From Salicibibacter cibarius (lineage in GTDB: Bacteria > Bacillota > Bacilli > Bacillales > Marinococcaceae): a DNA stretch of 64,000 bases. Position numbers and translations under genes: made by a program. Below, piece after piece: positions 23,653 to 39,721 of the stretch (within the stretch, counting starts at the first letter, position 1; each line of letters starts with the position of its first letter). The notes under the pieces were generated by a model that saw only the letters and a program-made list of their open reading frames with translations, did no database searches and was not told where the DNA came from. The stretch spans positions 2,170,001-2,234,000 of the forward strand of contig NZ_CP054705.1 of NCBI RefSeq assembly GCF_016495725.1, written 5' to 3'.

Positions 23653-25419
23653 ATGTTTACGAAAGCGCGCCATCTATTGCACACGTATTATGGCTATAAT
23701 GATTTTCGGCCCGGCCAAGAAGCGATCCTCGGTTCCATTTTTAACGGGCAGCACACGATGGGGATCATGCCTACCGGAGGCGGAAAATCGGTTTGTTATC
23801 AATTGCCGTCGCTCGTTTTGGATGGACTGACGATCGTTATTTCGCCGTTGATTGCGTTAATGAAAGATCAAGTCGACGAGATTCAGGAACTCGGCATTTC
23901 TGCCACGTATTTAAATAGTTCCTTATCCTTTGAAGAGATGCAGGAGAGGTTGAGTGACGTGCAGGCCGGAAAATATTCCTTGTTATACTTGGCACCGGAA
24001 CGTTTAACCGCGCCTCATTTTTTGGCTCGTATCCAATCGATGCCGGTCTCGCTAGTCGCCATTGATGAAGCGCATTGCCTCTCGCAATGGGGCCATGATT
24101 TTCGCCCGAGTTATCTTGATATCCCTCATTTTATCAATCAACTGCAATCCGAGCCAGTGATTTTAGCGCTCACGGCAACGGCAACGCCGACGGTCGCTGA
24201 CGATGTATGCAAATCCCTCGGGATTCCGGCAGGAAATATCGTAAAAACCGGGTTCGCGCGTGATAATCTCACGTTCTCTGTCATTAAAGGGCAGGACCGA
24301 GACGCGTACATACAAAATTATATTGAAAACAATCAAAACGAGTCGGGCATCATTTACGCGACAACGAGAAAAGAAGTGGAACGCATTGCCCAACGTTTAA
24401 AGACGAAAGGATTCAATGCCGCTTATTACCATGGGGGTATGGAAGCAAACGAGCGCGCCGAAAGCCAAGAAGCATTCGTATACGACGAAATCAACGTGAT
24501 GGTGGCCACAAACGCTTTCGGGATGGGGATTAACAAATCGAATGTTCGCTATGTGATTCACGCGCAAATCCCGAGGACGATGGAAGCATATTATCAAGAA
24601 GCGGGGAGAGCAGGGCGGGATGGCGAAAACAGCGATTGCATATTGCTATTTTCCCCTCAAGATATTCAAATTCAGCAATACCTGCTCGAACAATCCCAGC
24701 TTGACGAACCGAGAAAAGCAAACGAATTCCGTAAACTACGGGAAATGGTTAATTATTGCCACACCGAATCTTGTCTGCAAGCGTACATTCTTGACTATTT
24801 CGGCGAAGCAAACCCGATCGATTGCAAACGATGTCTCCATTGCACAGATCAGCGCAATGTTATTGACGTCACGAAAGACGCCCAAATCGTGTTATCATGC
24901 ATTAAACGAATGAAAGAAAGGTTTGGGAAAACGATCATTGCCCAGGTGCTTACAGGATCCGGCAACCAAAAAATAAAAGATTTACGCTTTGACCAATTGT
25001 CTACCTACGGCCTCATGAAAGGGGAGTCTCAAAAGGCGATCGTTGCATTTATTGATTTTTTAACCGCCCATCGTTATTTAACGCTTACGCAAGGGCAGTA
25101 CCCTGTGTTGCAACTAAGCGAAAAGTCGGTTGCGATCCTCAAAGGGGAGCAAAAAGTGATGAAAAAAGAGGATGCAACGGCCAAAGCACAAGTCACGGAT
25201 GACGACCCTCTCTTTCATCGTTTGCGAGAGCTGAGAACCGCACTCGCAAAGAAACATAAAATAGCCCCGTATATGGTGTTTTCCGATCAAACCTTAAAGG
25301 AAATGTCCGGCAAACAGCCCGCGACAAAAGCAAGTATGCTTGCCATTAAAGGCGTCGGCGAGCATAAATATGAAGTGTACGGCGAAGCGTTTTTGGACGA
25401 GATTCATGGGGAGGAATAA
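23653..25419 (+). CDS. recQ: ATP-dependent DNA helicase RecQ
   Basis: RecQ is a 3'-5' helicase acting in recombination and stalled-fork repair. The 588 residues contain Walker A (TGGGKSVCYQLP, about 39-50), the DEAH box in AIDEAHCLSQWGHDFRPSY, the helicase C domain (AGRAGRDGENSDC), the zinc-binding cysteines CHTESC and CKRCLHC (about 368-397), a winged helix and a C-terminal HRDC domain (about 516-585). GGGAGG lies 7 bases before the ATG. The TnpB element ends only 24 bp upstream, so recQ may now be transcribed from the element. The HRDC-coding 3' end is repeated twice elsewhere in the window. Confidence 0.96.
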   Translation: MFTKARHLLHTYYGYNDFRPGQEAILGSIFNGQHTMGIMPTGGGKSVCYQLPSLVLDGLTIVISPLIALMKDQVDEIQELGISATYLNSSLSFEEMQERLSDVQAGKYSLLYLAPERLTAPHFLARIQSMPVSLVAIDEAHCLSQWGHDFRPSYLDIPHFINQLQSEPVILALTATATPTVADDVCKSLGIPAGNIVKTGFARDNLTFSVIKGQDRDAYIQNYIENNQNESGIIYATTRKEVERIAQRLKTKGFNAAYYHGGMEANERAESQEAFVYDEINVMVATNAFGMGINKSNVRYVIHAQIPRTMEAYYQEAGRAGRDGENSDCILLFSPQDIQIQQYLLEQSQLDEPRKANEFRKLREMVNYCHTESCLQAYILDYFGEANPIDCKRCLHCTDQRNVIDVTKDAQIVLSCIKRMKERFGKTIIAQVLTGSGNQKIKDLRFDQLSTYGLMKGESQKAIVAFIDFLTAHRYLTLTQGQYPVLQLSEKSVAILKGEQKVMKKEDATAKAQVTDDDPLFHRLRELRTALAKKHKIAPYMVFSDQTLKEMSGKQPATKASMLAIKGVGEHKYEVYGEAFLDEIHGEE

Positions 25420-25491
25420 CTGGAGTGGCAAAAGGGATGCCCATGGAGGCGCCCCTTGTTTGGCTAATATTGATTAATGAGTCTAGGGAGA
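25243..25491 (+). repeat. recQ 3' end plus about 75 bp: parent copy of a dispersed segment
   Basis: From TCGCAAAGAAACATAAAATA to the recQ stop, and on through GGAGTGGCAAAAGGGATGCC and TTGTTTGGCTAATATTG to GTCTAGGGAG, this sequence recurs at 31743-31911 plus 34904-34987, and in part at 41163-41431. Because it encodes a canonical HRDC domain here, this is the source copy. Confidence 0.8.
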
Positions 25492-25505
25492 AAGGTGAAA
25501 AAGCG

Positions 25506-25749
25506 GTACTAAGAAAACTAGTAATCGCTGTAATATCTATTGTACTCTTTAGTTTCATTATCCCGTTTATCCAATATACGCCACAATCAGAACAAGAACC
25601 CAATGTGGGCTATTTTTCTTTTCTTGATCTTGTAATATCTTATATCATCAATTCATCCCTATTTTTTAGTAGGTGGTATCCCCACTTCGTTATTAATTGG
25701 AAAAATGGATGAGAAGATTACTTTTCCCCTGAAAAAGCATTGGTTTTGA
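25506..25749 (+). pseudogene. Frameshifted small membrane protein (UPF0715-like)
   Basis: Reading from 25506 gives RKLVIAVISIVLFSFIIPFI and, after a loop, SFLDLVISYIINSSLFF. At the T run near 25663 the frame breaks; adding one T restores LVGGIPTSLLIGKMDEKITF to a stop at 25749. The two hydrophobic segments and loop fit a small Bacillus membrane family, perhaps UPF0715 (from memory). There is no clear start codon. It is probably a dead gene whose upstream part was replaced by the recQ-flank segment. Confidence 0.5.
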
Positions 25750-26145
25750 AAGGCAATTGTATATCGTTGTTTCAGAGCTATAAAATCATATTCCCACACG
25801 AAATGGTATCCACAACTCTGACATTCTCGCGCAATCGCGAGAAACACCCATGGATAAATGGCGAATACCACGCTTATAAGGCGTGCCGTTCCGTTTCACC
25901 TGTTCAGAGAGATAAACCGGACAAGGTTGAATATGCTTGGTAGGCGTTATCTCAAAGATTAAATCTTTCTCGGGATTGAGATAGCTTTGTTTAATATATT
26001 AACGTCTGGAAGTTCGAGCAATTGCTTGGTACAATGATTGTCCACCTGATCACCCCACTATGATTTTGGTTGCACATTCATCATAGCAAGGGTGGCGGAT
26101 ACTATTCATTTATTTGGATTTATTAACATATTTGTCTGTCGATAT
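25750..26145. other. Gene-free stretch with possible transposase debris
   Basis: No gene with a ribosome site is visible. On the minus strand a frame near 25820-25940 reads YLSEQVKRNGTPYKRGIRHLS before stops, which may be a decayed transposase fragment, but I could not assign it. The rest is low-information AT-rich sequence. Confidence 0.35.
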
Positions 26146-26753
26146 TTACTTATCCCACTTCCCAGTAATGGCCGCAAGGATCAGCCAAGGCTCAATAAAT
26201 AAATTAATCAAAACATGAGCAACTATGGGGGCGAATATATTACGATCAGCAATAATGTACAAAATGGCCAGTAACCCACCAAGGACTGTCGTAGACAAAA
26301 TAGCCGGAAGAGCAATCTTCAGCTCTCCTCTAAGTAACACGCCAAACCAAATAAAATAGCTGACGCTAGCACTTGGATCGTTAGTGAATAATCTAAGCGC
26401 AGTAACCAATCCATCAATAGCTGCCGGAATAATATTTCTTCTACCGTACTAAGAACAAGTGCGGCCCATATACCAATCAGTTTAAGACGCGAGATTGTGA
26501 ATAAGTTTTCACGAACAAACGGAATGGCTTTAACGGTAAATATAATATACCCAATCGCAATGATTAACGTTAGTATCCAAACGATCGGATTGTTAAAAGC
26601 ATTGGAATTGATGCCTAATTGATGCTCAATAAATTGCTGCGGATTTCCAACATACCTGAACAACAACCAAATTGTAATCATTAATGAAATACTTACGAGT
26701 ACGAATGCTGTTTTTCTTTCACCCGGTGCCATCGAGGTTTTCATTGTATTCAT
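26146..26753 (-). pseudogene. CPBP-family intramembrane metalloprotease, broken
   Basis: The first frame (from ATG 26753) gives several membrane segments and the CPBP motif EEILFRQ, then ends ILFGLACYLEES. A second frame continues with LLRGELKIALPAILSTTVLG, RNIFAPIVAHVLINLF to a stop at 26146. Restoring one base in CTTAGAGG (probably CTTAAGAGG) joins them. The second motif, normally FxxxH, reads FGLAC, so a metal-binding His is also lost. CPBP (Abi/CAAX-like) proteins are membrane proteases linked to bacteriocin immunity and protein processing. This copy looks dead. Confidence 0.8.
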
Positions 26754-26912
26754 ATCAAGACTCCTTTAATATGAGTTTGAAACGAATTCATGTATTTTCA
26801 TAATAAGATCTTAAAGCTTTCCGATATCATAAATCCGACAATTTCAATGTCAAAAATATCGGATCGATGTAGATTGCAGATAATAGATTGTTTGTGTAAT
26901 GGAGCGGGTACA

Positions 26913-27809
26913 ATGATAAAGGAGCTTAATAACGTCGTATCATATATTGAAGATCATTTGGCAGAAGAATTAAATTTAGATAAAGAAATTCCTCATATGA
27001 CAGGCATTTCCTTATTTCAGTTTAAAAAACTATTTCTTTTGTTAGCGCATATGCCTTTGTTAGAGTACATTCGTAAAAGAAGGATGGCTTTGGCAGGTTA
27101 TGATCTTAGGGAAAGAAAAATGAAAGTGATTGATGTAGCGGTGAAATACGGGTATGATTCACCGGATGCTTTTGCAAAGGCTTTTTATAAAGTACACGAA
27201 GTGAATCCATCGAATGTGTATGAAGAGAAGACGCTAATAAAATCCTATTCTCCAATCTACTTCCAATTGACAATGATTGGAGGATCTCAAATGAATTATC
27301 GAATTGAAGAGAAAAACGCTTTTAACGTGGTCGGAATCCAAAAAAGAATTCCTTTTGTTAAGTGGGGGAAAAGCAAAGCCATTACGACTATTAAAGAAAC
27401 ATTAGATGATGAGATGTATCATAAATTAAATCAATTATCTAATGTGGAGCCTTACGGCGGCTATAGTGCAGTGTACAATATTATGGATTTTGAAGATGAA
27501 ACAAATGCTCAGTGCGATTTTATTTTAGGAACATTAACAACAAAAGAAAATGTGTTCGATTTAGATGCCCTTTATGTTCCTGAAGCCACCTGGGCGATTT
27601 TTACTTCTGATGAAAACAAACAACTCCAACTCCAAGAAGTATGGGCAAAGATTTATACAGAATGGCAGCCATCCTCTGAATACGAAATAATTGATGATGC
27701 GCCCGGAATCTTCTTTATGGAGAATGAAGGGGTTGACGATCCTTCGGTAAGAAAAGAAATTTGGGTACAAGTTAAGAACTCAACTTTCGGAGCTAAAAAT
27801 TACAGGTAA
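26913..27809 (+). CDS. AraC-family regulator with GyrI-like effector-binding domain
   Basis: The protein has an N-terminal AraC helix-turn-helix pair (about 1-105: TGISLFQFKKLFLLLAHMPL, then VAVKYGYDSPDAFAKAFYKV) and a C-terminal GyrI-like/effector-binding domain (about 130-298). I chose ATG 26913 because GGAGCGGG precedes it. It is divergent from the broken CPBP gene, which it may have controlled. The last codons belong to an inserted IS4: the native end, rebuilt by removing 27780-29370, would be GTT AAG AAG AAA TAA (VKKK), while the present end is VKNSTFGAKNYR. The protein should therefore still work. Confidence 0.85.
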   Translation: MIKELNNVVSYIEDHLAEELNLDKEIPHMTGISLFQFKKLFLLLAHMPLLEYIRKRRMALAGYDLRERKMKVIDVAVKYGYDSPDAFAKAFYKVHEVNPSNVYEEKTLIKSYSPIYFQLTMIGGSQMNYRIEEKNAFNVVGIQKRIPFVKWGKSKAITTIKETLDDEMYHKLNQLSNVEPYGGYSAVYNIMDFEDETNAQCDFILGTLTTKENVFDLDALYVPEATWAIFTSDENKQLQLQEVWAKIYTEWQPSSEYEIIDDAPGIFFMENEGVDDPSVRKEIWVQVKNSTFGAKNYR

Positions 27810-29363
27810 ACCCTTATAAAATCAGGATTTGTGGCAGATTTTTTATCCAAAAAAAGCAAAAAACACCCTATTCTTTGGTAAAATAAAGGTACCACACCAA
27901 AACCAAAGAAAGGATGTTTTCTGTGGTTTCAATGATACCAAATTCTGATCAAGGTAACCAGCAACAATCTCGCGTGACGCACTTTTTCAAACAGGCTAAA
28001 ATTGGTACGTTTTTGCACCAATCCAATATCCATAAAGAAAAAGGATTTTCTGCCCTCGTTCTTGTACAATTTATCTTTTCCCTCGTTCTGCAAGGGAAGA
28101 ATCTTTATCGGACGCTCGAGTCCGGCCGCCTTCCGGATGCGCCGGAAAAGGATGCCGTGTACGACTTGATGAAACGCGCAACGTATAACTGGCGGAAATT
28201 TCTCGTCTTGGTGAGCGCGCATCTCATAGAGACCTATCTCCAACCGTTGACGGATCGCGATGGTGTGTTGATCGTCGATGACTCGAGCTATGACCGTAAT
28301 CGCAGTAAAGCCGTCGAACTCCTATCACGTGTCAAAGACCACAGCACAGGCGCCTATTTCAAAGGTTTTCGGATGCTTACACTTGGTTGGTCGGATGGTG
28401 CAACGTTTCTACCTTTGGCCTTTTCATTGCTCAGTTCAAGAAAGGCAAAAAACCGTTTCCAGGAGGTGAATCCGACCATCGACAAACGAACGGTGGGTTA
28501 CCGCCGCCGACAAGAAGCGCTGCAGAAAGGGACGGAAACGTTGTTCACCTTGCTGGATGACATCAATCCTGTGAAGCTTGGCGCTAAAACGCTCCTTTTC
28601 GATAGCTGGTTTGCGTATCCTTCGATCATCAAACGCGTAGTTACCCAGTATCCCCTGGATGTCGTATGTATGATCAAGCGATCCCCCAAGATTCACTACA
28701 CCTACGAAGGGGAATCCTATACGTTGAACCAGCTTTACCAAAACGTGCGCAAGAAACGAGGCCGGGCAAAAATCCTTGCTTCCATTCTTGTTGGCCTAGG
28801 TTCGGATGAAAATGGGCAAGAGATTCAAGCTCGCATCATTTTTGTTCGTGATCGTAACCGTTCGAAACAGTGGTTAGCCATTCTCACGACGAACCTGGAT
28901 CATACCGAAGAAGATGCTGTTCGCATTTATGGTAAACGCTGGGCCATTGAATGCTTTTTCAAAGTGACCAAATCTCACTTGAGATTGGCCAAGGAATTCC
29001 AATGCCGCAGTTATGATGCGTTAACTGCGCACACATCAATTGTTTTTCTCCGCTACATGATGCTCGCTGTGAGCTCGCGGGAGGAAGAAGATCCTCGCAC
29101 GATTGGTCAGCTGTTTTTCATGTGTTGTGATGAGGTCGAAGATCTTCGATTTTCCGAAGCGATCTTGATGATCCTTGAAGTGTTAGGTTCGATGCTGGCG
29201 GAAGAACACTTGCTCACCGACGAGCAAATTCAGCCGTTTTTGGATCGATTGTTTGATAACTTGCCGGATTTTTTGCGAAAACCGTTACTTTCTTGAGGGT
29301 GAATTAGTCTTAAATCCCTTTATATCAGGTGTTTTCGTGTATTAGTCATGTCCGAAAGTTGAG
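27780..29363 (+). mobile_element. IS4-family insertion sequence inserted in the end of the AraC-type gene
   Basis: The terminal inverted repeats are CTCAACTTTCGGA (27780-27792) and TCCGAAAGTTGAG (29351-29363), 13 of 13 matching. A 7-bp target duplication, TTAAGAA, flanks it (27773-27779 and 29364-29370). Length is 1584 bp. Removing the element and one duplication restores a sensible end to the regulator gene. Confidence 0.9.
27914..29296 (+). CDS. IS4-family DDE transposase
   Basis: The 460-residue transposase has the IS4 pattern: first Asp in LIVDDSSYDRNRSKAVELL (about residue 120), second Asp in LLFDSWFAYPS, and the YREK-like segment YGKRWAIECFFKVTKSHLRL near the C-terminal third, which supplies the catalytic Glu. 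The ATG at 27914 directly abuts AAAGG; the GTG at 27923 has better spacing to that site and may be the true start. The gene is intact, so the element may still move. Confidence 0.9.
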   Translation: MFSVVSMIPNSDQGNQQQSRVTHFFKQAKIGTFLHQSNIHKEKGFSALVLVQFIFSLVLQGKNLYRTLESGRLPDAPEKDAVYDLMKRATYNWRKFLVLVSAHLIETYLQPLTDRDGVLIVDDSSYDRNRSKAVELLSRVKDHSTGAYFKGFRMLTLGWSDGATFLPLAFSLLSSRKAKNRFQEVNPTIDKRTVGYRRRQEALQKGTETLFTLLDDINPVKLGAKTLLFDSWFAYPSIIKRVVTQYPLDVVCMIKRSPKIHYTYEGESYTLNQLYQNVRKKRGRAKILASILVGLGSDENGQEIQARIIFVRDRNRSKQWLAILTTNLDHTEEDAVRIYGKRWAIECFFKVTKSHLRLAKEFQCRSYDALTAHTSIVFLRYMMLAVSSREEEDPRTIGQLFFMCCDEVEDLRFSEAILMILEVLGSMLAEEHLLTDEQIQPFLDRLFDNLPDFLRKPLLS

Positions 29364-29440
29364 TTAAGAAGAAATAAAAATGCCTGACAAGAGTGATGTT
29401 TAAATGAACATAATTAGAGGTAATGTTTACCTAAAGTTAC

Positions 29441-29465
29441 ATTATGATCAAATTATGATCATAAT
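29441..29465. promoter_or_regulatory. Repeated palindromic site upstream of the nuclease gene
   Basis: ATTATGATCA occurs at 29441-29450 and again at 29452-29461, 11 bp apart (one helical turn). The second copy is part of a 14-bp palindrome ATTATGATCATAAT (29452-29465). It lies 64 bp before the nuclease start in very AT-rich DNA. It may be an operator; no regulator is encoded beside it. Confidence 0.45.
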
Positions 29466-29528
29466 GATAATTTATTCTGTTAATTTGATAAAATAAAAAT
29501 AATACTATCCAGTTAAGGGGGCAATAAA

Positions 29529-31400
29529 TTGGAATATTGGGATGTATACGAGCTTAAAAGTAATAGAAACAAAAAATGTTTTATTGAATATCTTGAGGAG
29601 CTTCTGAAAACAGAAAATTATGATGCATTATTCCGTGCTATAAAAAGTTCTGGTGTGTATATAGCATATGATCCCAAGACAACAATAGATGAAAAGCAAG
29701 TGGAATTAGTAACAAATTTTATAATGGATAACCTTTATATGCTTTCACCAGAGAGAGTTGATTCTTTATTAAAAGAAGTTAAAACATTACAAGAGTTAAG
29801 AGATTCAGTTCTAAAAAAAGTGAATAAAACTTATAAACTCATATCAAAACAAAAGCAACCTTATTATTTGATAGAATATATTAATAAATTCTTTGCAGAG
29901 AGGTCTGAAGTTGAATTGTATATTAATTCAGATTTCAGTGATATACTTGATTTAAATGAAGAGATTATTATGTCCTTAGGTATTATTTTAAAAGACATGT
30001 CTAGCAGAAAAATACCTTTCTTAGTGACCAATGATCCTTCAAGTAATGAATATTATTTAATAGGCAAACATCTGGAAGTTGCTACTGAATTGAGATGCAT
30101 TAATAATATTATTGAGATGTGGATGTTTGGAGACATAGAAATAAATGAGAATGGAGAAAATGGCCTGCTCGAGATTAGAGAAGTAGGTAATTGGGGGAAA
30201 AAGGTATTAATGAGTAAAATACCTTTTCTAGACTTAAAAGAAACTAAGAATGTAAATATGAACAAAGGTTATAATTCAGAGATATTTAATAAAAGAAAAG
30301 TGTTAGAAAATAAAATTAAGGAGTATTTTTACACACAAGATTTTTTACAGAAATATAAAGGAATACCTCTAAAAGATTGGATTAATTCCTATTGGTGTCT
30401 CTATGAGTATTCTTTGAGACTCGGAACTAACCCTAATATTATTCACCATAGTATAACAGAATGGGAATATATTTTAATGAATGCTGGTGTTTCTGAAGTG
30501 CATGTATCTAATTTATTAAATCAGCTCACTTTTACAAAAAGTTCTAGAGATCTGTTTGACGCTCCGTTAATTAAATTTTCTGATGGACTTGTTTGTATAA
30601 CCAATATGATACCTTATATTGATATTTCTAGAGCATTAATGTCTCAACTTGGTATTCAAGAGGATGAAAATAATAAATTTGGTAGTTTTAACCAAAAAGG
30701 CGGGAATTTTGAGAACCATATAGAGCTGCTTACAAAGAAAAATATATCCAAAGTTATTCCGAATTTAAAGCGTAGTGTTAAAAAGAATGAACTTTATGAG
30801 GTAGACTTAATTTTTCAATTGGAGGGAAATTTATTTTTCGTTGAAGCAAAAACCCAAAAGCAACCTGTTTCACACAAGGATTATAAGAGGAATCAAGAAG
30901 AATTATTTTCCTATATTAAAAAATTCAATCGTAATGTCAATTATTTCATGAATAGTGAAACAGAAAAAAAGCTTATTATGAAAGAACTCGGAATGGAAAA
31001 AATAGAAAAAGTATATAGGATATTTGTTACAAATGTATATCAAGTTTTATCTTTCCTAGAAGGAGTTTATATAACAGATGAAATAAATTATTTTTGTTAT
31101 ATGAATCGAAGACCACAAGCAATCCATATTGAATCTGTTACTAAAAGAACTTTTACTAAATACCTTGATCCACATTTATATCAGGGCGATATAACATCTG
31201 ATCAATTTTTATCAATGATTACTAATGATGAACAAAATAATAGATTGATAAAAAGAATTGGAATTCGCGAAGTGGATTTAAAGGAGCAACTAAATCTTAT
31301 CCATACTTGTTACTATATAAAAAATGGAGCATACAAATTTTATGATGGTGATTTATCCAACAACGAAATGTTTAAAAACCTATATAATGATTACTTGTAG
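29529..31400 (+). CDS. Orphan 623-residue protein with a PD-(D/E)XK-type nuclease motif
   Basis: I do not recognise a named family. Near residues 395-445 the sequence GGNFENHIELL, then YEVDLIFQLEGNLFFVEAKTQ fits a restriction-like fold: Glu395, Asp426, then E-x-K at Glu439 and Lys441. The first 380 residues are helical and lysine/glutamate-rich with no motif I can name; there are no membrane segments or ATPase motifs. The start is TTG 29529, preceded by AAGGGG. Codon use is strongly AT-rich, unlike odhA or addA, and the gene lies between IS4 and IS21 insertions, so it was probably acquired. A single-gene phage-defence or mobile-element role is inferred, not shown. Confidence 0.7.
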   Translation: MEYWDVYELKSNRNKKCFIEYLEELLKTENYDALFRAIKSSGVYIAYDPKTTIDEKQVELVTNFIMDNLYMLSPERVDSLLKEVKTLQELRDSVLKKVNKTYKLISKQKQPYYLIEYINKFFAERSEVELYINSDFSDILDLNEEIIMSLGIILKDMSSRKIPFLVTNDPSSNEYYLIGKHLEVATELRCINNIIEMWMFGDIEINENGENGLLEIREVGNWGKKVLMSKIPFLDLKETKNVNMNKGYNSEIFNKRKVLENKIKEYFYTQDFLQKYKGIPLKDWINSYWCLYEYSLRLGTNPNIIHHSITEWEYILMNAGVSEVHVSNLLNQLTFTKSSRDLFDAPLIKFSDGLVCITNMIPYIDISRALMSQLGIQEDENNKFGSFNQKGGNFENHIELLTKKNISKVIPNLKRSVKKNELYEVDLIFQLEGNLFFVEAKTQKQPVSHKDYKRNQEELFSYIKKFNRNVNYFMNSETEKKLIMKELGMEKIEKVYRIFVTNVYQVLSFLEGVYITDEINYFCYMNRRPQAIHIESVTKRTFTKYLDPHLYQGDITSDQFLSMITNDEQNNRLIKRIGIREVDLKEQLNLIHTCYYIKNGAYKFYDGDLSNNEMFKNLYNDYL

Positions 31401-31740
31401 CAAAAAATATCTAATTTAATAATTAGATATAAAAGGTGAAGATGAAGCGATGATTATAATCTCCAAAAAATTCCATAAGGAGATTGATGATCTGAATATC
31501 AATGATTTCAATGAGTAAGTCATTTATAAATTTAGAAGAAGGAAGTTTAACATTCTATTTAAAGCAAGCCCAAATTCACCAATGGGGATGGGGTTCACCG
31601 CCGAATCGTGTAAATCGATCAATTCGTGTTACACTGGATATTTCGGCTGATGCATCCATGAGCTTTTTTCTCCTAGCCTCGGACTAACAGATGGGATTAT
31701 TTCCCATTAGATGTCCTAATTTTGCATGTATCTCGGAGCA
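31401..31740. other. AT-rich debris and start of a mosaic repeat
   Basis: After the nuclease gene, a 22-codon frame with a ribosome site (AAAGGTGAAG, ATG 31451) encodes MIIISKKFHKEIDDLNINDF. It is followed by MSKSFINLEEGSLTFYLK (from about 31511), which looks like the N-terminus of a lost protein. At about 31590 the sequence changes to repeat DNA: 31603-31637 matches 39314-39349, and 31647-31742 matches 41067-41162. Nothing here looks functional. Confidence 0.5.
31603..31637. repeat. 35-bp dispersed repeat, copy 1
   Basis: GAATCGTGTAAATCGATCA then TTCGTGT.ACACT is shared with 39314-39349. Both lie in gene-free mosaic repeat DNA. Confidence 0.6.
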
Positions 31741-31911
31741 CCCGTCGCAAAGAAACATAAAATAGCCCCGTATATGGTGTTTTCCGATCAAACCTTAAAG
31801 GAAATGTCCGGAAAGCAGCCCGCGACAAAAGCAAGTATGCTTGCCATTAAAGGCGTCGGCGAGCATAAATATGAAGTGTACGGCGAAGCGTTTTTGGACG
31901 AGATTCATGGG
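31647..31911 (+). repeat. Second copy of the recQ 3'-end segment, left part
   Basis: Positions 31743-31911 are almost identical to the end of recQ (25243-25411), including HKIAPYMVFSDQTLKEMSGK. Before it, about 95 bp (31647-31742: GATGC.TCCATGAGCTTTTT ... CGTATCTCGG-like) has no match in recQ but does match the third copy at 41067-41162. The copy is interrupted by an IS21 at 31915 and resumes at 34904. Confidence 0.8.
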
Positions 31912-32030
31912 GGGTGAGTACGGCGGACAATTCTTACCACTTGTGCGGTCTTTTTTACCACCTTTTGCAGGAAAATGTACCACTCAATGCGGATCCCTTT
32001 ACCACAGATGAAAAGAACGGCTTGAAATAA

Positions 32031-32060
32031 GATATTCCCCGCCCATGGGCGGGGAATATC
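32031..32060. terminator. Perfect palindrome, likely terminator of the IS21 operon
   Basis: GATATTCCCCGCCCA and its exact complement TGGGCGGGGAATATC form a 15-bp stem 8 bp after the stop of the third gene. T-rich sequence follows on the minus strand. Confidence 0.75.
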
Positions 32061-32068
32061 TTTAGCCA

Positions 32069-32386
32069 TTAAAATGGGAGTCTCCCTAATTCAAAGTCAA
32101 GCTCACATTTCAGCTTATCAATCTTTTTTTGTAACTCTTCCACTTTTTCCTCGAGTCTTACGATTTTGGTTTTATCACTAATTCCTTTTTCATAGGGTGT
32201 TCCAACACGACTTAAATCGACCAAAAACGATAATACTGCTGGCTCTGTAATATTGAAATCTTCTCCATTTTCTGTTGCTTCGATTTCACCTTCAGCGATC
32301 CATTTTCTAACATCTAATTCATCGCAGTCAATCTCATAATTGTGTAGGAGATCGAGAGTCTCCGCGAGTGTCATGTATTCCCTCAT
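32069..32386 (-). CDS. Third gene of the IS21 element, small helix-turn-helix/coiled-coil protein
   Basis: This 105-residue protein begins MREYMTLAETLDLLHNYEID. The first half (LDVRKWIAEGEIEATENGEDF) resembles a MerR/excisionase-like winged helix, and the second half (KTKIVRLEEKVEELQKKIDK) is a clear coiled coil. The ATG at 32386 is preceded by AAAGGGTGT. It lies 29 bp after istB in the same direction and before the element's terminator, so it is a passenger in the transposition operon. Most IS21 elements carry only istA and istB. A regulatory role is inferred. Confidence 0.7.
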   Translation of the reverse strand: MREYMTLAETLDLLHNYEIDCDELDVRKWIAEGEIEATENGEDFNITEPAVLSFLVDLSRVGTPYEKGISDKTKIVRLEEKVEELQKKIDKLKCELDFELGRLPF

Positions 32387-32414
32387 TTTAAACACCCTTT
32401 CATTTCTAGGTTTT

Positions 32415-33197
32415 TTATAAAAAATTGTTGTTCTCTTTATCGTTTGCCGTTTGTTTTTGCACACCAAGACGTTCGCGCATCGACACTTTTCCGTCAATGA
32501 AAATATCATAGGAATCATGAATAATTCGGTCGAGAATGGCTTCTGCCAAGGTGCCATCTCCCAGTTTCTCGTACCATCCATCAATATCAAATTGAGAACA
32601 AAAGATGTTGGATTGTTTTGCCTGACGTCTTGCGTTTATGATTTCAAGAAGGAGAGCTGCTTCTTCATTGGTTAAGGCGTGAAGCAGCCATTCATCAAGA
32701 ATAAGAAGATCTACCTTTAGAAGCTTTCTCATGAGTTTGACATAGCTGTCATCCTGTTGATATTTTGCAAGTTTAAATTCCTCTAATAGATCAGGAAGCC
32801 GTGTGTAATGTACTTTGAAGAACTGTCGGCACGCCTGTACGCCAAATGCGGCGGCCATCCACGATTTCCCGGCTCCAGACACGCCTTTAAAGATAATATT
32901 TCGCCCATCCAGAATATAGCTTCCGCTGGCTAAACGCTGGAGTAAATCTTTGTCTAGTTTCCGGTCATCATAATACATGATCTCTTCGATTGAAGCCGGT
33001 TCAGGAAACGCTGCCTGTTTGAGAAGACGGTTGAGTTTATTACTTTTCCGGCGGGATTCTTCATGGTCAATTAAGATGCCGAATAATGTATCAAAATCCA
33101 TCTCTTTATTTTCTGCCTTCGTGAAAAGAGATTCATAGGCTTCTGCCATCCCTGATAGTTTCAATGTTTTTAGTTTATCAATATTCTGCTGGTTCAT
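32415..33197 (-). CDS. istB: IS21 helper ATPase IstB
   Basis: IstB is the AAA+ ATPase that helps IstA select and join to target DNA. The 260 residues show Walker A (GVSGAGKSW, about 106-114), Walker B (LLILDEW) and the family's typical start NIDKLKTLKLSGMAEAYESL. The DEW in place of the usual DE(W/D) plus LLHALTNEE is within family range. Its start overlaps the istA stop by 4 bp. The gene is intact. Confidence 0.93.
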   Translation of the reverse strand: MNQQNIDKLKTLKLSGMAEAYESLFTKAENKEMDFDTLFGILIDHEESRRKSNKLNRLLKQAAFPEPASIEEIMYYDDRKLDKDLLQRLASGSYILDGRNIIFKGVSGAGKSWMAAAFGVQACRQFFKVHYTRLPDLLEEFKLAKYQQDDSYVKLMRKLLKVDLLILDEWLLHALTNEEAALLLEIINARRQAKQSNIFCSQFDIDGWYEKLGDGTLAEAILDRIIHDSYDIFIDGKVSMRERLGVQKQTANDKENNNFL

Positions 33198-34744
33198 TTG
33201 TTTTTCCCTCCAAAATAGGAAGCCCCACGTGTAAACGCATGCTTATTTTTGACGTTCTGTTGCTTCTGTGTGAAAGCTTTCTCTGCGTCTGCTTTTTTAT
33301 TGTTCTTGATGAGCGTTTGAATACTTTTTACTGTAGGCCGATTCGTGATCTGGTGGACCATTTTACACGCACGTTCGATATCATAAACCGTGTAGGTGCG
33401 TTCCAATTTCTTTAAGGCAAAAACAGACTTCAGCGCTTGTTTTTCAACCCCGTAGCTCTCCAACAAGAACTTCACCACGGAAAGCGTATGTTCCCCAACA
33501 TCTGTAGCCCAATCTAATGCATTTTGCGGCGTTTGTTCCACGTAATGCTTATGGTTATCCGGCATATGATCTTTCACAGTAGAATGTTGGCCGTATTTCC
33601 CATATAATGTTTGATGTGAGGCAATCCTCATGTGATCGAAATAGACTTCGATCACATGATCTGAGACTTTCACATCGACGTGCTTTCCGATGTATTCATA
33701 GGGAACGGAGTAGAACATGCTTTTCACAGAGATGTGATAATCAGGCTGCACCTTGGCGGTTCGCCACTCAGACATCTCGTAGGGTTTAACGGGAAGAGGA
33801 GTAAGGGCGAACTTCTCTTCTTCCATAAACGCTGACCAGCGAGAGCCTTCTTTTTTTGTGAAGGGCCGGTGGTTAAACTCCCCTAGCTTCTTTCGGATCT
33901 CTTGGTTCATTTCCTCCAACGTAAAACATTGGACATGCCTTAACGCAGCGATAATCCACGTCGACACCGTGTTCACCGAACTTTCCACACTCGGCTTATC
34001 TTTGGGTGAACGCACGCGTGCTGGCATGACCACGGAGTGATAGTGGCGGACCATTTCTTCATACGTCTTGTTTAACACCAGCTCTTTGGAGGTATGCTTG
34101 GTCACCCCTGTCCTTAAATTATCGGGCACAATAATTTGGGTGGTGCCTCCCATGTATTCAAACGCGTGTTGATGAAGCTTAATCCAAGAAGCTAAATCCA
34201 TGGATAAAGAGCCCTCCACATAGGAAAGCTGAGAACACGGTAAAGCTGCCACAAATACATAGACTTTCACTTTTTCCCCGGTATCGGGATCAATGATAAA
34301 TAGGGTAGAACCTGCCCAATCGACTTCTAACAATTCCCCTGGTTTCCGCTTAATTCTCATGGTCGCTTTATACTTCTGGGCAAAATTGTGGTAGTGTTCC
34401 GTAAAAGTCCGATAGGCATAGGGAATCTTCGCTTGGTCCCGGGCTTTCCTCACATATTCCTCATGAAGCAATGTCAAAGTGACATGGGGCTTGGCCAACT
34501 CCTCATGCAAATAATCAAAATCAATCATTTGCCGTCCAGAAGCTTCTAACTTTTTCTCTGGATATAGAAAATCTTCAATCCAAGCATCTGTCATTTCCTC
34601 ATCGAGCGGACACTTCAACCCTCTTTTCTCCGCCAAGCGTATGACTTCCGTTACTTTTTGCCTTGAACGGCGGGTCATAGCTGCGATACTTCGTAAACTC
34701 CTTTCCTCGTCATGTAATTCCAGCATCTGTCGATATGGGAACAT
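33194..34744 (-). CDS. istA: IS21 transposase IstA
   Basis: IstA is the DDE transposase of IS21 elements. The 516 residues contain an N-terminal helix-turn-helix (LRSIAAMTRRSRQKVTEVIR), the integrase core beginning GELLEVDWAGSTLFI (first Asp about residue 139), IIVPDNLRTGV (second Asp) and a third acidic residue in KDKPSVESSVNTV. The order and spacing are typical. It is translationally coupled to istB. The gene is intact, so the element may be active. Confidence 0.93.
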   Translation of the reverse strand: MFPYRQMLELHDEERSLRSIAAMTRRSRQKVTEVIRLAEKRGLKCPLDEEMTDAWIEDFLYPEKKLEASGRQMIDFDYLHEELAKPHVTLTLLHEEYVRKARDQAKIPYAYRTFTEHYHNFAQKYKATMRIKRKPGELLEVDWAGSTLFIIDPDTGEKVKVYVFVAALPCSQLSYVEGSLSMDLASWIKLHQHAFEYMGGTTQIIVPDNLRTGVTKHTSKELVLNKTYEEMVRHYHSVVMPARVRSPKDKPSVESSVNTVSTWIIAALRHVQCFTLEEMNQEIRKKLGEFNHRPFTKKEGSRWSAFMEEEKFALTPLPVKPYEMSEWRTAKVQPDYHISVKSMFYSVPYEYIGKHVDVKVSDHVIEVYFDHMRIASHQTLYGKYGQHSTVKDHMPDNHKHYVEQTPQNALDWATDVGEHTLSVVKFLLESYGVEKQALKSVFALKKLERTYTVYDIERACKMVHQITNRPTVKSIQTLIKNNKKADAEKAFTQKQQNVKNKHAFTRGASYFGGKNK

Positions 34745-34903
34745 AAAAAACCTCCTGTATTCCTAATGTCATGCCGTTTGGCATGCCCATTAAGTATACA
34801 GGAGGTGGTGTATTGGTAAAGGCTTCCGCAATAAGTGGTAAATATCTCCGCACTTGGTGGTAAAAAAGATTGCAAGGGTGGTACAAACCGAATGCAATAC
34901 TCA

Positions 34904-34987
34904 GGGGGGAAATAACTGGAGTGGCAATAGGGATGCCCATGGAGGCACCCCTTGTTTGGCTAATATTGGTTAATGAATCTAGAGAGA
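34904..34987 (+). repeat. Second copy of the recQ 3'-end segment, right part
   Basis: AATAACTGGAGTGGCAATAG and on through TTGTTTGGCTAATATTGGTT to TCTAGAGAGA match the recQ downstream flank 25412-25491 with a few changes. Homology stops at 34987. Confidence 0.8.
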
Positions 34988-35546
34988 TTCATAATACCTG
35001 CCGGAAGACGGTAACGGGTCCATCATTAGAGGCTAAAAAAGCCACATATACGAAAAAGCTGTGATAAAGGGTTTTATTGTACTTCCAATTGGCTCTTTCA
35101 ATGCCCCTTATAACAACAGTTTCTGCTATTCGGGGGACGTTGTGGACCTTATAAGGACCGGCGATCACTGCTCGGAGGTGCGATGGGTGCTAATCAGCTG
35201 TATCAAGCTATCGGTGAATGTGAACAGTTGTTTTGGGAAGAACTCCTGTTATCAAAAGCGTAATATCAACCGTATTATTTTGGTTGAAAATATCATATTG
35301 ACTTCAATTGGAGTCATGATCGCTCCGCCAATCAGTGATTATGTATATAGATTGGTTGTTCAATCTTTATCCAATTCCAATTAATAGATTCCTGACACTT
35401 TTAATTTGGCATCAATAGATTTGGCAATCATTTGTATTAACGATCATATCGAATCTGAAGCGTGTTGAATAGGTATTTCAGAAGGACAGTTTTATCAATT
35501 TTTTTCAAACTCTGGCGGCTATCACAAGAGCACTCCATTAACATTG
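34988..35546. other. Gene-free stretch with decayed membrane-protein-like sequence
   Basis: No gene with a ribosome site is visible. A plus-strand frame ending at 35384 reads IILVENIILTSIGVMIAPPI and SDYVYRLVVQSLSN, which looks like the end of a small membrane protein after frameshifts. It may be a relic of the gene that once followed this recQ-flank copy. I see no promoter or structured element. Confidence 0.35.
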
Positions 35547-36089
35547 TCATCCCCCCATCCGTACAAAGTAAAAGCTATAAAAGGTTAGCCAAAACAATAA
35601 CCAGGTGATCATCTTCCAGTGTAACCAGATAGGCTTTAACAACCACTGACTAAGTCCCCATACGAGCAATCCGGCAAGAAGAAAACGTACCACACGCGCC
35701 GGGACACTAATGAGCAAAAAGAGCAGGAGGGAAATGTCTGCTTCAGCGGCGTAGCTGGCATAAATTTTATAAGGGATGCCTTGAGTAGGGCCCAGGATGA
35801 TCGCTTGCCATCCTGTCTCTCGTAATTGTGTACGAACGTCTTCAATTAAAGCGTCATCAATCGCCGGGACCATGACAAGAAGTTGGCGCGTGTGATCAGC
35901 AAACCATACGCCCATGATGTACATCAGGCATCCCCCTATTAAAGCTCCGCCAAGCGCCCACAAGCATAAACGAACGACCATCCGGATTCGATTCGAGAGA
36001 GCCCCATAGGTAATGAGCACATCGGGAACGATGAAGAAAAGGGTTGCCTCTGCCAACCCCCACACACCTGACCAACGCTTCATTCCCAT
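35547..36089 (-). CDS. Integral membrane protein of the lipid operon
   Basis: The 180-residue protein has about four hydrophobic segments (LAEATLFFIVPDVLITYGAL, LCLWALGGALIGGCLMYIMG, ISLLLFLLISVPARVVRFLLA, KMITWLLFWLTFYSFYF) and a central GPTQGIPYKIYASYA loop that recalls VTT/DedA-like proteins, though I cannot confirm this. It overlaps the upstream acyltransferase gene by 10 bp and is the last gene of a four-gene operon, so a role in membrane lipid synthesis or transport is likely. Function not known. Confidence 0.75.
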   Translation of the reverse strand: MGMKRWSGVWGLAEATLFFIVPDVLITYGALSNRIRMVVRLCLWALGGALIGGCLMYIMGVWFADHTRQLLVMVPAIDDALIEDVRTQLRETGWQAIILGPTQGIPYKIYASYAAEADISLLLFLLISVPARVVRFLLAGLLVWGLSQWLLKPIWLHWKMITWLLFWLTFYSFYFVRMGG

Positions 36090-36718
36090 TCGCCGTAGTT
36101 CCCTTCTTCTTTCAATGTCCGAAAGCGGTCACTGGCAGCAGCCATAAATTGCTCGCGGTCCCCTTGCCAAAAAAGCGGTTCCCCAATATGAATATTAGCG
36201 GTAAACGGGACGATCAACGGATCTCCTTTCGGCATCGCTTTTCCTAATCCGTGTGTAAAAATGGGATGCACAGGGACATGCGGGTGACGTTTAATCAAAT
36301 GAGCCAATCCGCTTTTCAGTTCTGTCATTTGCTCCGGTTCTCCGCGTGTGCCTTCGGGGAAGAAAATAAGCACCTCGCCACGATCAAGAGCATCTGATAA
36401 CGGTTCAAGCGGATCCCCTTGTTTTTTGTCGCCACGTCTTGCAATCGGGATGATATTCATAATGTTTGTGGCGAACCAAGCAAGCCAGCGTGTTTTGAAA
36501 AAGTAATCAGCGGCGGCAATCGGACGGACGTTGGGCAATTTGCTGAGTGGAAACAGATTCATCAATAGCGGTGTGTCCATATGACTGTTGTGATTGGCAA
36601 TCAACACTGCAGGTCCGTCCTTAGGCAGCCGGTCCGGATGATGGAGGTTAATGCCGAGCACAATGAGCAATATCGGTTTTACCATAAAAATAAAGAAGAG
36701 CTTTTGTAACCAGGGCAT
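36080..36718 (-). CDS. 1-acyl-glycerol-3-phosphate acyltransferase-like protein (PlsC family)
   Basis: PlsC-type enzymes add an acyl chain to lysophosphatidate at the membrane. The 212 residues contain the acyltransferase block I NHNSHMDT (HxxxxD, about 42-49), block III FPEGTRGEP (about 120-128) and an N-terminal hydrophobic segment. The gene lies downstream of the CdsA-like gene, separated by a 115-bp insert that resembles a small mobile relic. It is most likely a specialised paralogue serving this operon and not the only PlsC of the cell. Confidence 0.88.
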   Translation of the reverse strand: MPWLQKLFFIFMVKPILLIVLGINLHHPDRLPKDGPAVLIANHNSHMDTPLLMNLFPLSKLPNVRPIAAADYFFKTRWLAWFATNIMNIIPIARRGDKKQGDPLEPLSDALDRGEVLIFFPEGTRGEPEQMTELKSGLAHLIKRHPHVPVHPIFTHGLGKAMPKGDPLIVPFTANIHIGEPLFWQGDREQFMAAASDRFRTLKEEGNYGEWE

Positions 36719-36734
36719 AATGCCACCCCCTTTT

Positions 36735-36835
36735 TAACACTTTAAGAATATTTACCTTCGTTTTTCGTTTAAGGATTAAAGTATAAGAAAAGACTTTGAC
36801 TTTCGCCAATTTCGGCGATAAGGAAAGATTTTCTA
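36735..36835. repeat. Small dispersed element B (TnpB left-end-like relic)
   Basis: It matches element A at 4864-4955: TTAAGAATATTTA, AAGGATTAAAGTATAAGA, then a hairpin (CTTTCGCC/GGCGATAAGG) and TTTTCTAA. AAGTATAAGA..AGACTTTG is also found upstream of the TnpB gene at 47642. It sits between the CdsA-like and PlsC-like genes and touches the CdsA-like stop codon. Confidence 0.5.
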
Positions 36836-37804
36836 ATAAAAGAAATTTGTGAAATGGAAAAACAACGGGGCAGTGTAAGTCAAGCTGTCGATCCGATCGA
36901 GGATTCCCCCGTGGCCCGGAAGCGCCTTCCCGCTGTCTTTGACACCAATGTCCCGTTTTAAGGCTGAAACATTCACATCCCCGATAAAACCGAAGACACT
37001 GATCAATACCCCGCTGCCAATTGCTGCCACCCATGTGAAAGGTGTGAGCAAGGGAGCAAGTAAAAGAGCAAGCAACACCGTGGATCCGACACCACCAAGA
37101 AACCCGGCCCACGTTTTGTTCGGGCTGACGGCAGGGACAATTTTTCGCTTGCCGAGCATTTTTCCGAATAAAAATTGTGAGACATCATTCAATTGCGTAA
37201 GAATGACCAAGTAGATAATAAAACCGGCACCGCCTGCTAACGGGTTCATCGCTTCAGGCAGCGCCAGAAAATAAGCCAAGTGGCTTAAGCCGAAAACCAT
37301 CAGCATGATTCCCCAATGGATGGCCCCGATGGACTTCAGAAAACCCTTCGTCTGACCGATCAATACCATTACAATAGGCAAAAACAAGAACATATAAATG
37401 GGAATGAAAATGATAAACATGCCATACCATTCCATATAAATCCACAGAAATTGAATAGGAATGGAAAGATAGGCAAAGAACAACACTCTGCGATCCGCTC
37501 GCCGTGTCGGGATCATCGAAAAGTATTCTTTTAAAGCCAGATATGTAAGAAAAGCAAAAAAAACGAGTGATATGTTCTCGTGAATCAACGTCGCGATGGA
37601 AAAGACAATCGCCATAAACCACCATGAACGAATGCGGTTGCCGATCTCACTGAAATTTTTGTCAGGTCTCGATCGTTTCAGAAGATGATTAACAATACTC
37701 GCGATAATCAAAAGCACGAAAATCCCGAGCAGCACTTGCACTAGAGGATTTGCCCAAACATTCATGTCCAAAATGGTCTCCATTACATCCGATAGAAATG
37801 CCAT
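36833..37804 (-). CDS. CDP-diacylglycerol synthase-like protein (CdsA family, YnbB-like)
   Basis: This membrane enzyme makes CDP-diacylglycerol from CTP and phosphatidate. The 323 residues have about eight membrane segments and the full CdsA signature near the C-terminus, SALKRDIGVKDSGKALPGHG followed by GILDRID. It starts directly after the stop of the upstream phosphatidyltransferase gene (spacing 0), with GGAGG in that gene's end. The pairing with a YnbA-like enzyme suggests a YnbB-type accessory synthase and not the housekeeping CdsA. Element B at its 3' end may weaken co-transcription of the downstream genes. Confidence 0.9.
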   Translation of the reverse strand: MAFLSDVMETILDMNVWANPLVQVLLGIFVLLIIASIVNHLLKRSRPDKNFSEIGNRIRSWWFMAIVFSIATLIHENISLVFFAFLTYLALKEYFSMIPTRRADRRVLFFAYLSIPIQFLWIYMEWYGMFIIFIPIYMFLFLPIVMVLIGQTKGFLKSIGAIHWGIMLMVFGLSHLAYFLALPEAMNPLAGGAGFIIYLVILTQLNDVSQFLFGKMLGKRKIVPAVSPNKTWAGFLGGVGSTVLLALLLAPLLTPFTWVAAIGSGVLISVFGFIGDVNVSALKRDIGVKDSGKALPGHGGILDRIDSLTYTAPLFFHFTNFFY

Positions 37805-38413
37805 TTATGAACGAACCTCCTTTAAAGCACGGTTTGCGCGATTAAATGTTGTTAAAACCAAGAGCAGAAATAATACAGCGATCACGATGGTGTAAAGGAT
37901 CGATGGAAAAGAAAAAAAATAAATCAACAGAGACAGCATACCAAACACAAACGCACGATCACTTTTGCCCATAGGGCCATCATAACGCCTGCTTCCGCCA
38001 ATCACTGTACCAAGAATCCCCGTGACTTCCGTAACAAGCGCTAATACTACGAGAGATACGACCAAAGCGGGAGGTACATCAAGAATGAGGGCAAAAGGTA
38101 AATAAAGGGCTGCATCGGAAACAATGTCCCCCAATTCGTTTAAAATGGCTCCCATGGAAGATTCCATCCCATGTTCACGGGCAAGCATGCCATCAATGGC
38201 ATTCAACATCATTCGAAAAAATAAAAAAACAGGGACAAATAAAATCAGCCAGTTATAAGAGGGATATAGCAGCAAAAGGATCCCGAGCGCGATCGACAGG
38301 ACAGCGGCAGTTATTGTAACGAAATTTGCTGTTACTCCTATTTTCGCCAATCCTCTCACAAGTGGGCGTAATAATTGTTGAAATTTAGGCTTCAATTCGT
38401 AGATACTCACCAC
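37805..38413 (-). CDS. CDP-alcohol phosphatidyltransferase (YnbA-like)
   Basis: Members of this membrane family swap CMP of CDP-diacylglycerol for an alcohol. The motif reads DGMLAREHGMESSMGAILNE then LGDIVSD: the DGxxAR start and final Asp pair are present, but where PgsA has D-x-x-x-D the first Asp is Asn followed by Glu (NELGDIVSDAALYLPF). That variant recalls E. coli YnbA (from memory). The 202 residues have about five membrane segments. It is the first gene of the operon; the alcohol substrate is unknown. ATG 38413 lies about 155 bp from the divergent HAD gene. Confidence 0.85.
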   Translation of the reverse strand: MVSIYELKPKFQQLLRPLVRGLAKIGVTANFVTITAAVLSIALGILLLLYPSYNWLILFVPVFLFFRMMLNAIDGMLAREHGMESSMGAILNELGDIVSDAALYLPFALILDVPPALVVSLVVLALVTEVTGILGTVIGGSRRYDGPMGKSDRAFVFGMLSLLIYFFSFPSILYTIVIAVLFLLLVLTTFNRANRALKEVRS

Positions 38414-38518
38414 AGCAATATGACTCCTAACGTAAATAGGATCTTATATTGAGCATATCGAATGTCAGTGATTCGGCAAGGGACGATAAGCCTATTTTTC
38501 TAGGTTTTTCTTCATCCC

Positions 38519-38547
38519 TTGCATTTATCAAAAAGGAAAATGATAAT
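38519..38547 (+). promoter_or_regulatory. Sigma-A promoter of the HAD phosphatase gene
   Basis: TTGCAT (38519-38524) and GATAAT (38542-38547) are 17 bp apart, just ahead of the ribosome site GGGAGGGG. Confidence 0.65.
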
Positions 38548-38568
38548 TTAAGTAACGGGAGGGGTACA

Positions 38569-39204
38569 ATGAAAATGAAAGCGATACTATTCGATTTTGA
38601 TGGCACACTCGCCAATACTTTGCCGGTGGTGCACCATGCTTTTCAAACAACCTTTGCAACCTTTGACGGGAAAAATCTCTCGGCGCAAGAGGTCATGTCT
38701 ATGTTCGGTCCGTCAGAGACAGAGATTATTAGAAAAAACCTTGTGAATCAGGCGAAAAATGATGCCATCGAAACGTATTACGAGGCATATAAAAAGAACC
38801 ATGCCAGGTTGGTACATAACAACGAAGACATCAACAATTTATTGCGTTCATTGAAAAGCGATCAAGGGATAAAAGTGGGGATCGTCACGGGAAAAGCGAG
38901 GCGAAGTTTGGATCTATCTTTGGAAGCGCTTGGAATGGAACATTTTTTTGATGTCATCATTACCGGCGATGATGTTGAACGTCCGAAGCCCGATCCGGAA
39001 GGGATACAACAAGCGCTCTCTATCGTAAAGACGGACACTGATCAAGCAATGTTTCTCGGTGATAGTGATGCGGACATTGAAGCTGGGCTCGCCGCTAAAG
39101 TGTACACGATTGGGGTACAATGGCTTCCGGAATATCAAACAACAGACTTTAAGCAACAGCCACATCGTATTTTAAAGCGAGTGGAGGAATTTAACAATCT
39201 CTAG
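38569..39204 (+). CDS. HAD-family phosphatase (phosphoglycolate phosphatase/PpaX-like)
   Basis: The 211-residue hydrolase has the motif DFDGTLANT (nucleophile Asp9 region), a helical cap (about 15-85), the motif II Thr in VGIVTGKARR, the Lys in ERPKPDPEGI and motif III GDSDADIEAG. This set matches the GmhB/Gph/PpaX-like group acting on small phosphate esters; the true substrate is unknown. I chose ATG 38569 because GGGAGGGG precedes it; the frame is open further upstream but that part overlaps the promoter. It is a single-gene unit, divergent from the lipid operon. Confidence 0.88.
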   Translation: MKMKAILFDFDGTLANTLPVVHHAFQTTFATFDGKNLSAQEVMSMFGPSETEIIRKNLVNQAKNDAIETYYEAYKKNHARLVHNNEDINNLLRSLKSDQGIKVGIVTGKARRSLDLSLEALGMEHFFDVIITGDDVERPKPDPEGIQQALSIVKTDTDQAMFLGDSDADIEAGLAAKVYTIGVQWLPEYQTTDFKQQPHRILKRVEEFNNL

Positions 39205-39498: not shown

Positions 39499-39721
39499 AT
39501 ACGCACAATTGAGGATATTTCTTTTCTTAGTGACACAGGAGCTTTCAACGTCCCCCATATCGAAGATCATACTTTTTTAAAGACGCTGGAGCTGGCCAGT
39601 GTACGCCTGTTTGAGAAATCATTCCAGTTAAAATTTGATGATTCTTCTGTTATACCTTTTTACACTATAAGGATAAACGTACCATTGGCGAGAGGTCACG
39701 TTTTTCTAAAAGGCATATACC

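Follow-up and report, generated by a model that had tools for sequence, protein, structure and literature searches.

The 64,000-nucleotide stretch of Salicibibacter cibarius DNA analyzed here (hereafter, the window) carries at positions 29529-31400 of its forward strand a lone gene encoding a 623-residue PD-(D/E)XK nuclease, which we interpret, with a probability of roughly 57%, as a single-gene defense nuclease that cleaves DNA when triggered by infection or by foreign DNA. The computed support for this interpretation consists of an intact gene, a family of relatives, the core fold, invariant catalytic residues, the lack of a recurring partner in the loci compared, and genomic settings that are mobile and in part defense islands; DNA cleavage, the trigger and the defensive outcome are what we infer for the window gene.

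The gene opens with a TTG codon placed 7 nt after a well-spaced ribosome-binding site, AAGGGGG (29515-29521, forward strand), and runs through 623 codons without interruption. With a GC content of 27.9% and a GC3 of 22.8%, against window medians of 46.7% and 47.5%, it is the lowest in GC of the 39 non-overlapping window ORFs of at least 150 residues that were compared, bearing out an initial annotation that had called it far more AT-rich than the core genes. A promoter scan was uninformative (15 sites, 15.4 expected). The host genome is a single contig of 4.51 Mb in which the protein matches only itself. That no named defense family could be recognized, as the same annotation had stated, holds across three profile libraries: there is no match at E<=1 among the Pfam, PADLOC and NCBIfam models, the best row of a PHROG scan (E 0.021) lies at chance level, and a PDB sequence search returned nothing; a match to a non-nuclease family, named in advance as the result that would speak against a nuclease, did not occur.

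The residues on which the catalytic prediction turns are Glu395 (codon 30711-30713), Asp426 (30804-30806) and the Glu439-Ala-Lys441 motif (30843-30851, all on the forward strand), which had already been singled out in the 623-residue protein. They are indeed present, and E395, D426, E439 and K441 are kept in 12 of the 12 close members aligned, at identities to the window protein of 20-29%; since only 13 of the 299 query columns are invariant, these four among them, the chance of all four predicted residues being so is about 4e-6. The members aligned from two distant types (one SEC-C-tailed, one of another type), which the 12-member alignment omits, likewise retain all four residues. Across the catalytic stretch, the C-terminal profile of the family matches Can2 at E 2e-4. 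As to other profile rows for the family alignment A1, Pfam gave weak NERD rows for six of its 10 members (E 0.0013 at best), a SEC-C row for one, a DUF4143 row for one (E 0.00022) and two further rows at E 0.04-0.07 in one member each, NCBIfam gave SEC-C-type rows in one of the 10, and PADLOC gave PDC-S12 and E2 rows in one of the 10. When 10 relatives were scanned singly with PADLOC, a set to which L038 does not belong, these PDC-S12 and E2 rows did not come up.

AlphaFold models place these residues in a PD-(D/E)XK fold, an assignment that we regard as very nearly certain. The model of the window protein, built on an 8-row alignment, is middling (pLDDT 66.3, pTM 0.64), and that of a central relative, on 7 rows, reaches a pLDDT of 76.7 and a pTM of 0.77; the two concur in a helical N-terminus followed by a winged-helix-like domain and a PD-(D/E)XK core, with a tail that is predicted poorly, and the restriction-like core that structure prediction had been expected to reveal around residues 395-441 is in the model. 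On the forward strand of the window, secondary structure and models delimit a helical N-terminal region, a putative sensor or assembly part (residues 1-244; 29529-30260), a tentative winged-helix-like domain (residues ~274-378; 30348-30662) and the nuclease core (residues 390-525; 30696-31103). The core, of the order alpha-beta-beta-beta-alpha-beta, is matched by Can2, Card1, Cdn1 and AF1548 at 2.9-4.1 A over 109-122 residues, with Z scores for the window protein of 8.5 (Card1; 109 residues, 3.2 A), 8.5 (AF1548), 8.4 (Cdn1), 8.3 (Can2) and 7.0 (SduA), and for the relative of 9.0 (AF1548), 8.9 (Cdn1), 8.4 (Can2) and 6.9 (Card1); McrC is also among the matches. Because the fold tool warns that a Z below 8, or below about 13 for helical parts, can mean a common arrangement, the profile match to Can2 is the firmer link. 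A BFVD fold search gave nothing at E<=0.001, and we discounted a match to the coiled-coil fusion 6h9m (E 0.008-0.03) as a helical one.

For the window protein, the winged-helix-like domain is proposed because the C-terminal domain of Cdt1 (Z 6.5 over 93 residues at 3.4 A) and a CAP protein (Z 5.9 over 76 residues at 2.8 A) match there; for the relative, the match is again Cdt1 (Z 5.6). The domain contains the conserved residues F335, S339, D341, D344 and P346. Its predicted place immediately before the nuclease would suit a lone restriction enzyme, either type IV-like (modification-dependent) or sequence-specific, in which the winged helix reads the DNA and the nuclease cuts beside it without any infection trigger. 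FokI and N.BspD6I carry their nuclease behind DNA-reading domains, and both are among the fold matches of the relative, FokI as its top row by Z (Z 9.8, rmsd 17 A) and N.BspD6I with Z 8.2 over 137 residues at 3.9 A. Among 332 neighbors compared by blastp at 1e-4, moreover, no cognate methyltransferase of a type I or type II system recurs, type I sets being found at only 2 of 16 loci, as a type IV enzyme would predict; the N6_Mtase genes of the host genome itself lie about 0.9 and 1.4 Mb from the window gene. Yet the rmsd to FokI is very large, the lack of any Pfam family in the protein means that it has no known modification reader, and the long helical N-terminus is left unexplained, and on balance we consider a restriction enzyme of either kind unlikely.

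Among named systems, the CARF-linked nucleases Can2, Card1 and Cdn1 come nearest when the sequence of the nuclease core is compared (E 2e-4 for Can2) and are high by fold (Z 8.3-8.9), although for the relative the Card1 match is lower (Z 6.8-6.9). The weak CARF_PDDEXK matches that PADLOC gives for relatives are mostly restricted to the core, and the PADLOC rows lie in the nuclease stretch save for one weak Csx1 row at residues 302-518. Whereas the Can, Card and Cdn proteins carry an N-terminal, Rossmann-like CARF domain, none is seen in our models, where the N-terminus is predicted to be almost entirely helical, and we noticed no partner of a type III CRISPR system near the family loci.

Shedu systems consist of a single gene whose variable N-terminal part precedes a C-terminal PD-(D/E)XK nuclease. 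The window gene is laid out in the same manner, as one gene with an N-terminal part, which may differ from that of SduA, ahead of such a nuclease; a passage of PMC12839542 also describes this layout for Shedu. The SduA core aligns with the window protein at Z 7.0 (142 residues, 4.2 A) and with the relative at Z 6.7, both near the level of a common arrangement. The window protein matches no SduA/DUF4263 profile in Pfam or PADLOC, libraries in which such models are presumably present, and none of 10 relatives gives a row named SduA in PADLOC.

The longest structural alignment is that with Upx (PDB 9wuf), residues 752-1271 of which superpose on residues 73-524 of the window protein (Z 10.4, 384 residues, rmsd 7.0 A), the relative aligning in the same register (Z 9.4, 372 residues, rmsd 7.4 A). 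In Foldseek, Upx headed the matches of the window protein (E 8.2e-6, the sole PDB match below 0.001); for the relative, Foldseek gave no PDB match below 0.001, with Upx absent from the top 50 listed. Upx is numbered to residue 1271, so that the 623-residue window protein is about half as long and the N-terminal part of Upx is unaligned, and it gave no sequence match to the window protein or its relatives in the PDB search and no row in the PADLOC scans, whose library (PADLOC-DB 2.0.0) may or may not include a Upx model. Given an rmsd of about 7 A and a Z short of what the tool recommends for helical parts, we treat the resemblance as a lead that may or may not reflect common descent. Upx figures as an antiphage system in Table 1 of PMC10855318 and is also treated in passages of PMC12629846 and PMC12824646; the name was not found in PMC13367071. 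On present evidence, the gene product is comparable to Shedu or Upx and a member of neither. Membership in GapS1 was likewise rejected, the Agrobacterium member of the family reaching E 0.14 and 10.9 bits against NCBIfam NF047931, whose cut-off is 320.

Another parallel may be found in BREX loci, for which PMC12839542 reports PD-(D/E)XK nucleases, stand-alone or fused, as the most prevalent auxiliary effectors. The kind of protein is thus already known, while its passages on auxiliary nucleases do not describe the family of the window gene, which is without a name there. One of the 12 close members is seen in a BREX locus, in Alkalibacillus haloalkaliphilus, 77 nt behind the BrxHII/DrmD gene of a BREX type 3-like cluster recognized by PADLOC (PglXI, PglZ, BrxA, BrxHII/DrmD; DrmD is the top-scoring model for the helicase), and PglZ was found in 1 of the 11 carrier genomes searched. 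A literature search that spanned the relatives' accessions, Upx, BREX stand-alone nucleases, GAPS1, recQ integration, winged-helix XK nucleases and the Alkalibacillus BREX locus did not find the family described in titles and abstracts.

The family is rare and scattered across phyla, its 12 close members coming from Bacillota, Fusobacterium and Proteobacteria. By tblastn, 6 of 72,556 plasmid records match (Priestia, Exiguobacterium, Agrobacterium, Erwinia, Klebsiella and Fusobacterium, the last through a record of 2.1 Mb that is classed as a plasmid). Within the class, protein matches at E<=0.001 occur in 6 of 398 genomes, one of them a dropped 58-residue piece with three stops (row G336, left out), profile matches at E<=1e-6 in 4 of 397 genomes of the order, the host's own included, and a phylum scan of 398 genomes found only the own one. 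A 12-row C-terminal profile at 1e-5 matched 11 of 378 genomes of the class, distant types included; its weak rows L052-L055 were not taken as members, and the neighborhood L058 of weak row L053 was left out of the counts. Of 39 stretches picked up by pattern scanning of genome contigs, 3 were confirmed (Alkalibacillus haloalkaliphilus, Rossellomorea arthrocnemi and Lysinibacillus sp. FJAT-14745), as against none of 10 with the window protein alone, and E. coli genomes searched with the DNA of the Klebsiella relative gave no match. Proteins of one distant branch reach a greater length, 730-757 residues (L004/L022, 8396-10588; L057, 7929-10202), and the L004/L022 member of this branch has a C-terminal SEC-C motif. 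Since PD-(D/E)XK cores are found in repair nucleases too, and EndoMS, Hjc and Bax1 are among our fold matches, one may ask whether the nuclease works in repair or recombination, for the host or for a mobile element, with no part in defense. Such a role appears very improbable, as none of the 28 other genomes searched in the family of the host, including all three congeners (3/3), has a match, the composition is strongly foreign, and the relatives are scattered over phyla.

The initial annotation had located the gene in an insertion hot-spot between an IS4 and an IS21. The hot-spot is real, although its site is the 3' end of recQ (25244-25419 within the intact recQ, 23653-25419, forward strand), and the IS21 landed in a scar that was already there. 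Scar copy 2 of this gene end lies at 31745-31912 (forward strand; 99% identity to the last 168 bp of recQ) and continues past the IS21-type element at 34904-34987 (forward strand; 92% identity to 25408-25491), and scar copy 3 comprises two degraded pieces, 41164-41269 and 41378-41436, within 41164-41436 (forward strand); no additional copy was found elsewhere in the host genome. Comparison by blastn with three congeners places the insertion point directly behind recQ: the genes from 41484 onward, the first of which is absent in two of the three, follow recQ at once in two congeners and after about 1.8 kb in the third, and in the window, where the site covers 25244-41490, 16 kb lie between. The left end of this insert (25488-25727) may be older local DNA, because it has an 85% counterpart within the 1.8 kb of the third congener. 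Aligned with the congeners L034 and L036, both scars start at one and the same recQ base (position 5706 and position 5684, respectively); against the third congener, L035, the starts fall at 5719 and 5723, no more than four bases apart, and ACCCG before the junction is common to both. To judge from these alignments, the 3' end of recQ appears to have received site-specific insertions repeatedly, with a fresh gene end brought in each time; no integrase was recognized among the insert ORFs (ORF lists, and 10 ORFs compared with Pfam).

As for the flanks, a DDE transposase ORF (27914-29296, forward strand; Pfam DDE_5 and DDE_Tnp_1) stops 232 bp before the nuclease gene, so that a transposase does stand there, IS4 being the initial annotation's name for it, and the IS21 assignment stands, the element (31915-34903, reverse strand) beginning 0.5 kb past the gene end and containing an IstB_IS21 and Mu-transpos_C_2 ORF pair (Pfam, 32415-34744). 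Its position inside scar copy 2, with GGGGGG on both sides (31909-31914 and 34904-34909), indicates that it arrived once the scar was in place. The second half of the insert, 34904-41163, holds reversed lipid-synthesis-type genes and another DDE transposase, the former comprising an acyltransferase and a cytidylyltransferase (Pfam), a VTT-domain row below cut-off and, by eye, a CDP-alcohol-transferase-like ORF. The same insert also holds, at 26319-27809, a CAAX-protease-like ORF that is truncated, together with an AraC-type regulator that has a GyrI-like domain and ranks second-lowest in GC among the 39 window ORFs. An island with such a fragment and the recQ scars, and a gene between IS elements, would also be compatible with a decaying passenger that has no function in the strain; the gene is nevertheless of full length, has its ribosome site and keeps all 13 residues invariant in the family, and we give this explanation hardly any credence. 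For codon selection, every relative is too distant from the window gene for comparison.

In Alkalibacillus haloalkaliphilus, MzaC and MzaD (PADLOC) lie on the side of the nuclease opposite the BREX-like cluster, and the whole of L017 1825-19818 (PglXI, PglZ, BrxA, BrxHII/DrmD, then the family nuclease, a resolvase, MzaC and MzaD) is a composite defense island. The Lysinibacillus FJAT-14745 member stands before hsdM, hsdS, hsdR and a HEC-06/Orf5-type gene; among distant members, L004/L022 adjoins a type I restriction-modification system (hsdM/hsdR), L057 adjoins GajA/GajB, and another lies, by eye, within a prophage. When, for a rough control, HsdM (at least 190 bits), PglZ and GajA were counted in 11 carrier genomes, one of these markers lay within 10 kb at 4 of the 11 family loci, against 0.047 expected (P ~2e-7); the three marker families were picked after the neighbors had been seen, and with 20 times more markers the P for at least four would be ~0.015. 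The four comprise 2 of 7 close and 2 of 4 distant members. The large gene that precedes the member in L019 had no PADLOC match.

The remaining settings raise the question of whom the nuclease serves. Plasmid records of 53-115 kb hold 5 of the 12 close members, those of Priestia, Exiguobacterium, Erwinia, Klebsiella (a prophage-like plasmid) and Agrobacterium (near an integrase and toxin-antitoxin genes), with no adjoining gene annotated as anti-phage (going by annotation), and the window gene itself lies in an insertion island, all of which would agree with a nuclease that benefits its carrier element, in competition between plasmids or islands, exclusion or stabilization, and not the host. 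Other members, however, stand by eye among seemingly ordinary chromosomal genes, one inside an apparent cobalamin operon in Fusobacterium and one close member behind an rlmH-like gene, at what we take to be an SCCmec-type site, and no small antitoxin-like partner recurs among ORFs of at least 50 residues; a service confined to the carrier thus seems quite improbable. Nor does any other partner recur that would make up a conserved two-gene operon: among 332 ORFs around 16 loci, some of them short (e.g., 3 kb upstream in L038), only five cross-locus blastp pairs were found at 1e-4, namely an hsdM pair and an hsdS pair, both between one set of two loci, plus three generic ones, and the gene is as lone as it had been described.

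Some findings weigh against the defense reading. Only 2 of the 12 close members were seen to touch a named defense system, PADLOC having been run on few of the other loci, and the remaining two cases concern distant members; no defense gene was recognized among the neighbors of the window gene itself (10 island ORFs compared with Pfam); and none of 50,697 phage records matches by tblastn, nor was any of 4, 21 and 81 stretches confirmed in pattern scans of viral contigs. The earlier expectation that homologues would lie near defense genes or insertion sequences is borne out in part, some being near defense genes and several on mobile DNA. The single-gene system for phage defense or element competition that had been proposed for the window gene is partly supported, an activity of either kind being a prediction.

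The single-gene immune nuclease nonetheless remains the reading that we favor, as rarity, scatter over phyla, foreign composition, location in hot spots, the lack of a partner and adjacency to BREX, restriction-modification and Gabija systems all fit it. In the mechanism we propose, the protein would act as a stand-alone effector requiring no partner gene and built of three parts, a helical N-terminus (residues ~1-250), a winged-helix-like domain that would contact DNA (274-378) and the PD-(D/E)XK nuclease (390-525), where E395, D426, E439 and K441 would cut DNA with the help of a divalent metal. A lone nuclease must be restrained, and release upon infection or entry of foreign DNA is hence to be expected, the N-terminal part presumably detecting either and setting the nuclease free. 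Mobile DNA would have brought the gene into the hot spot at the recQ 3' end, where it most likely guards the host, or the element that carries it, from phages or competing elements. A bolder extension, to which we give somewhat less than even odds, is that the relatives constitute a partner-free immune nuclease family without a prior name, spread thinly across Bacillota, Fusobacteriota and Pseudomonadota, that adds, on its own, a second line of immunity next to BREX, type I restriction-modification or Gabija, with the C-terminal half of Upx perhaps a longer cousin.

For Salicibibacter cibarius, these comparisons point to the 3' end of recQ as an insertion site that has been used repeatedly in its genome. 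If the proposed function were confirmed, bacterial immunity would gain a single-gene nuclease family that has no name yet, for which the catalytic prediction is clear, a structural link to Upx is possible, and the portable, partner-free layout makes testing easy; it would also mean that the Pfam, PADLOC and NCBIfam libraries overlook families that are rare and yet cross phyla.
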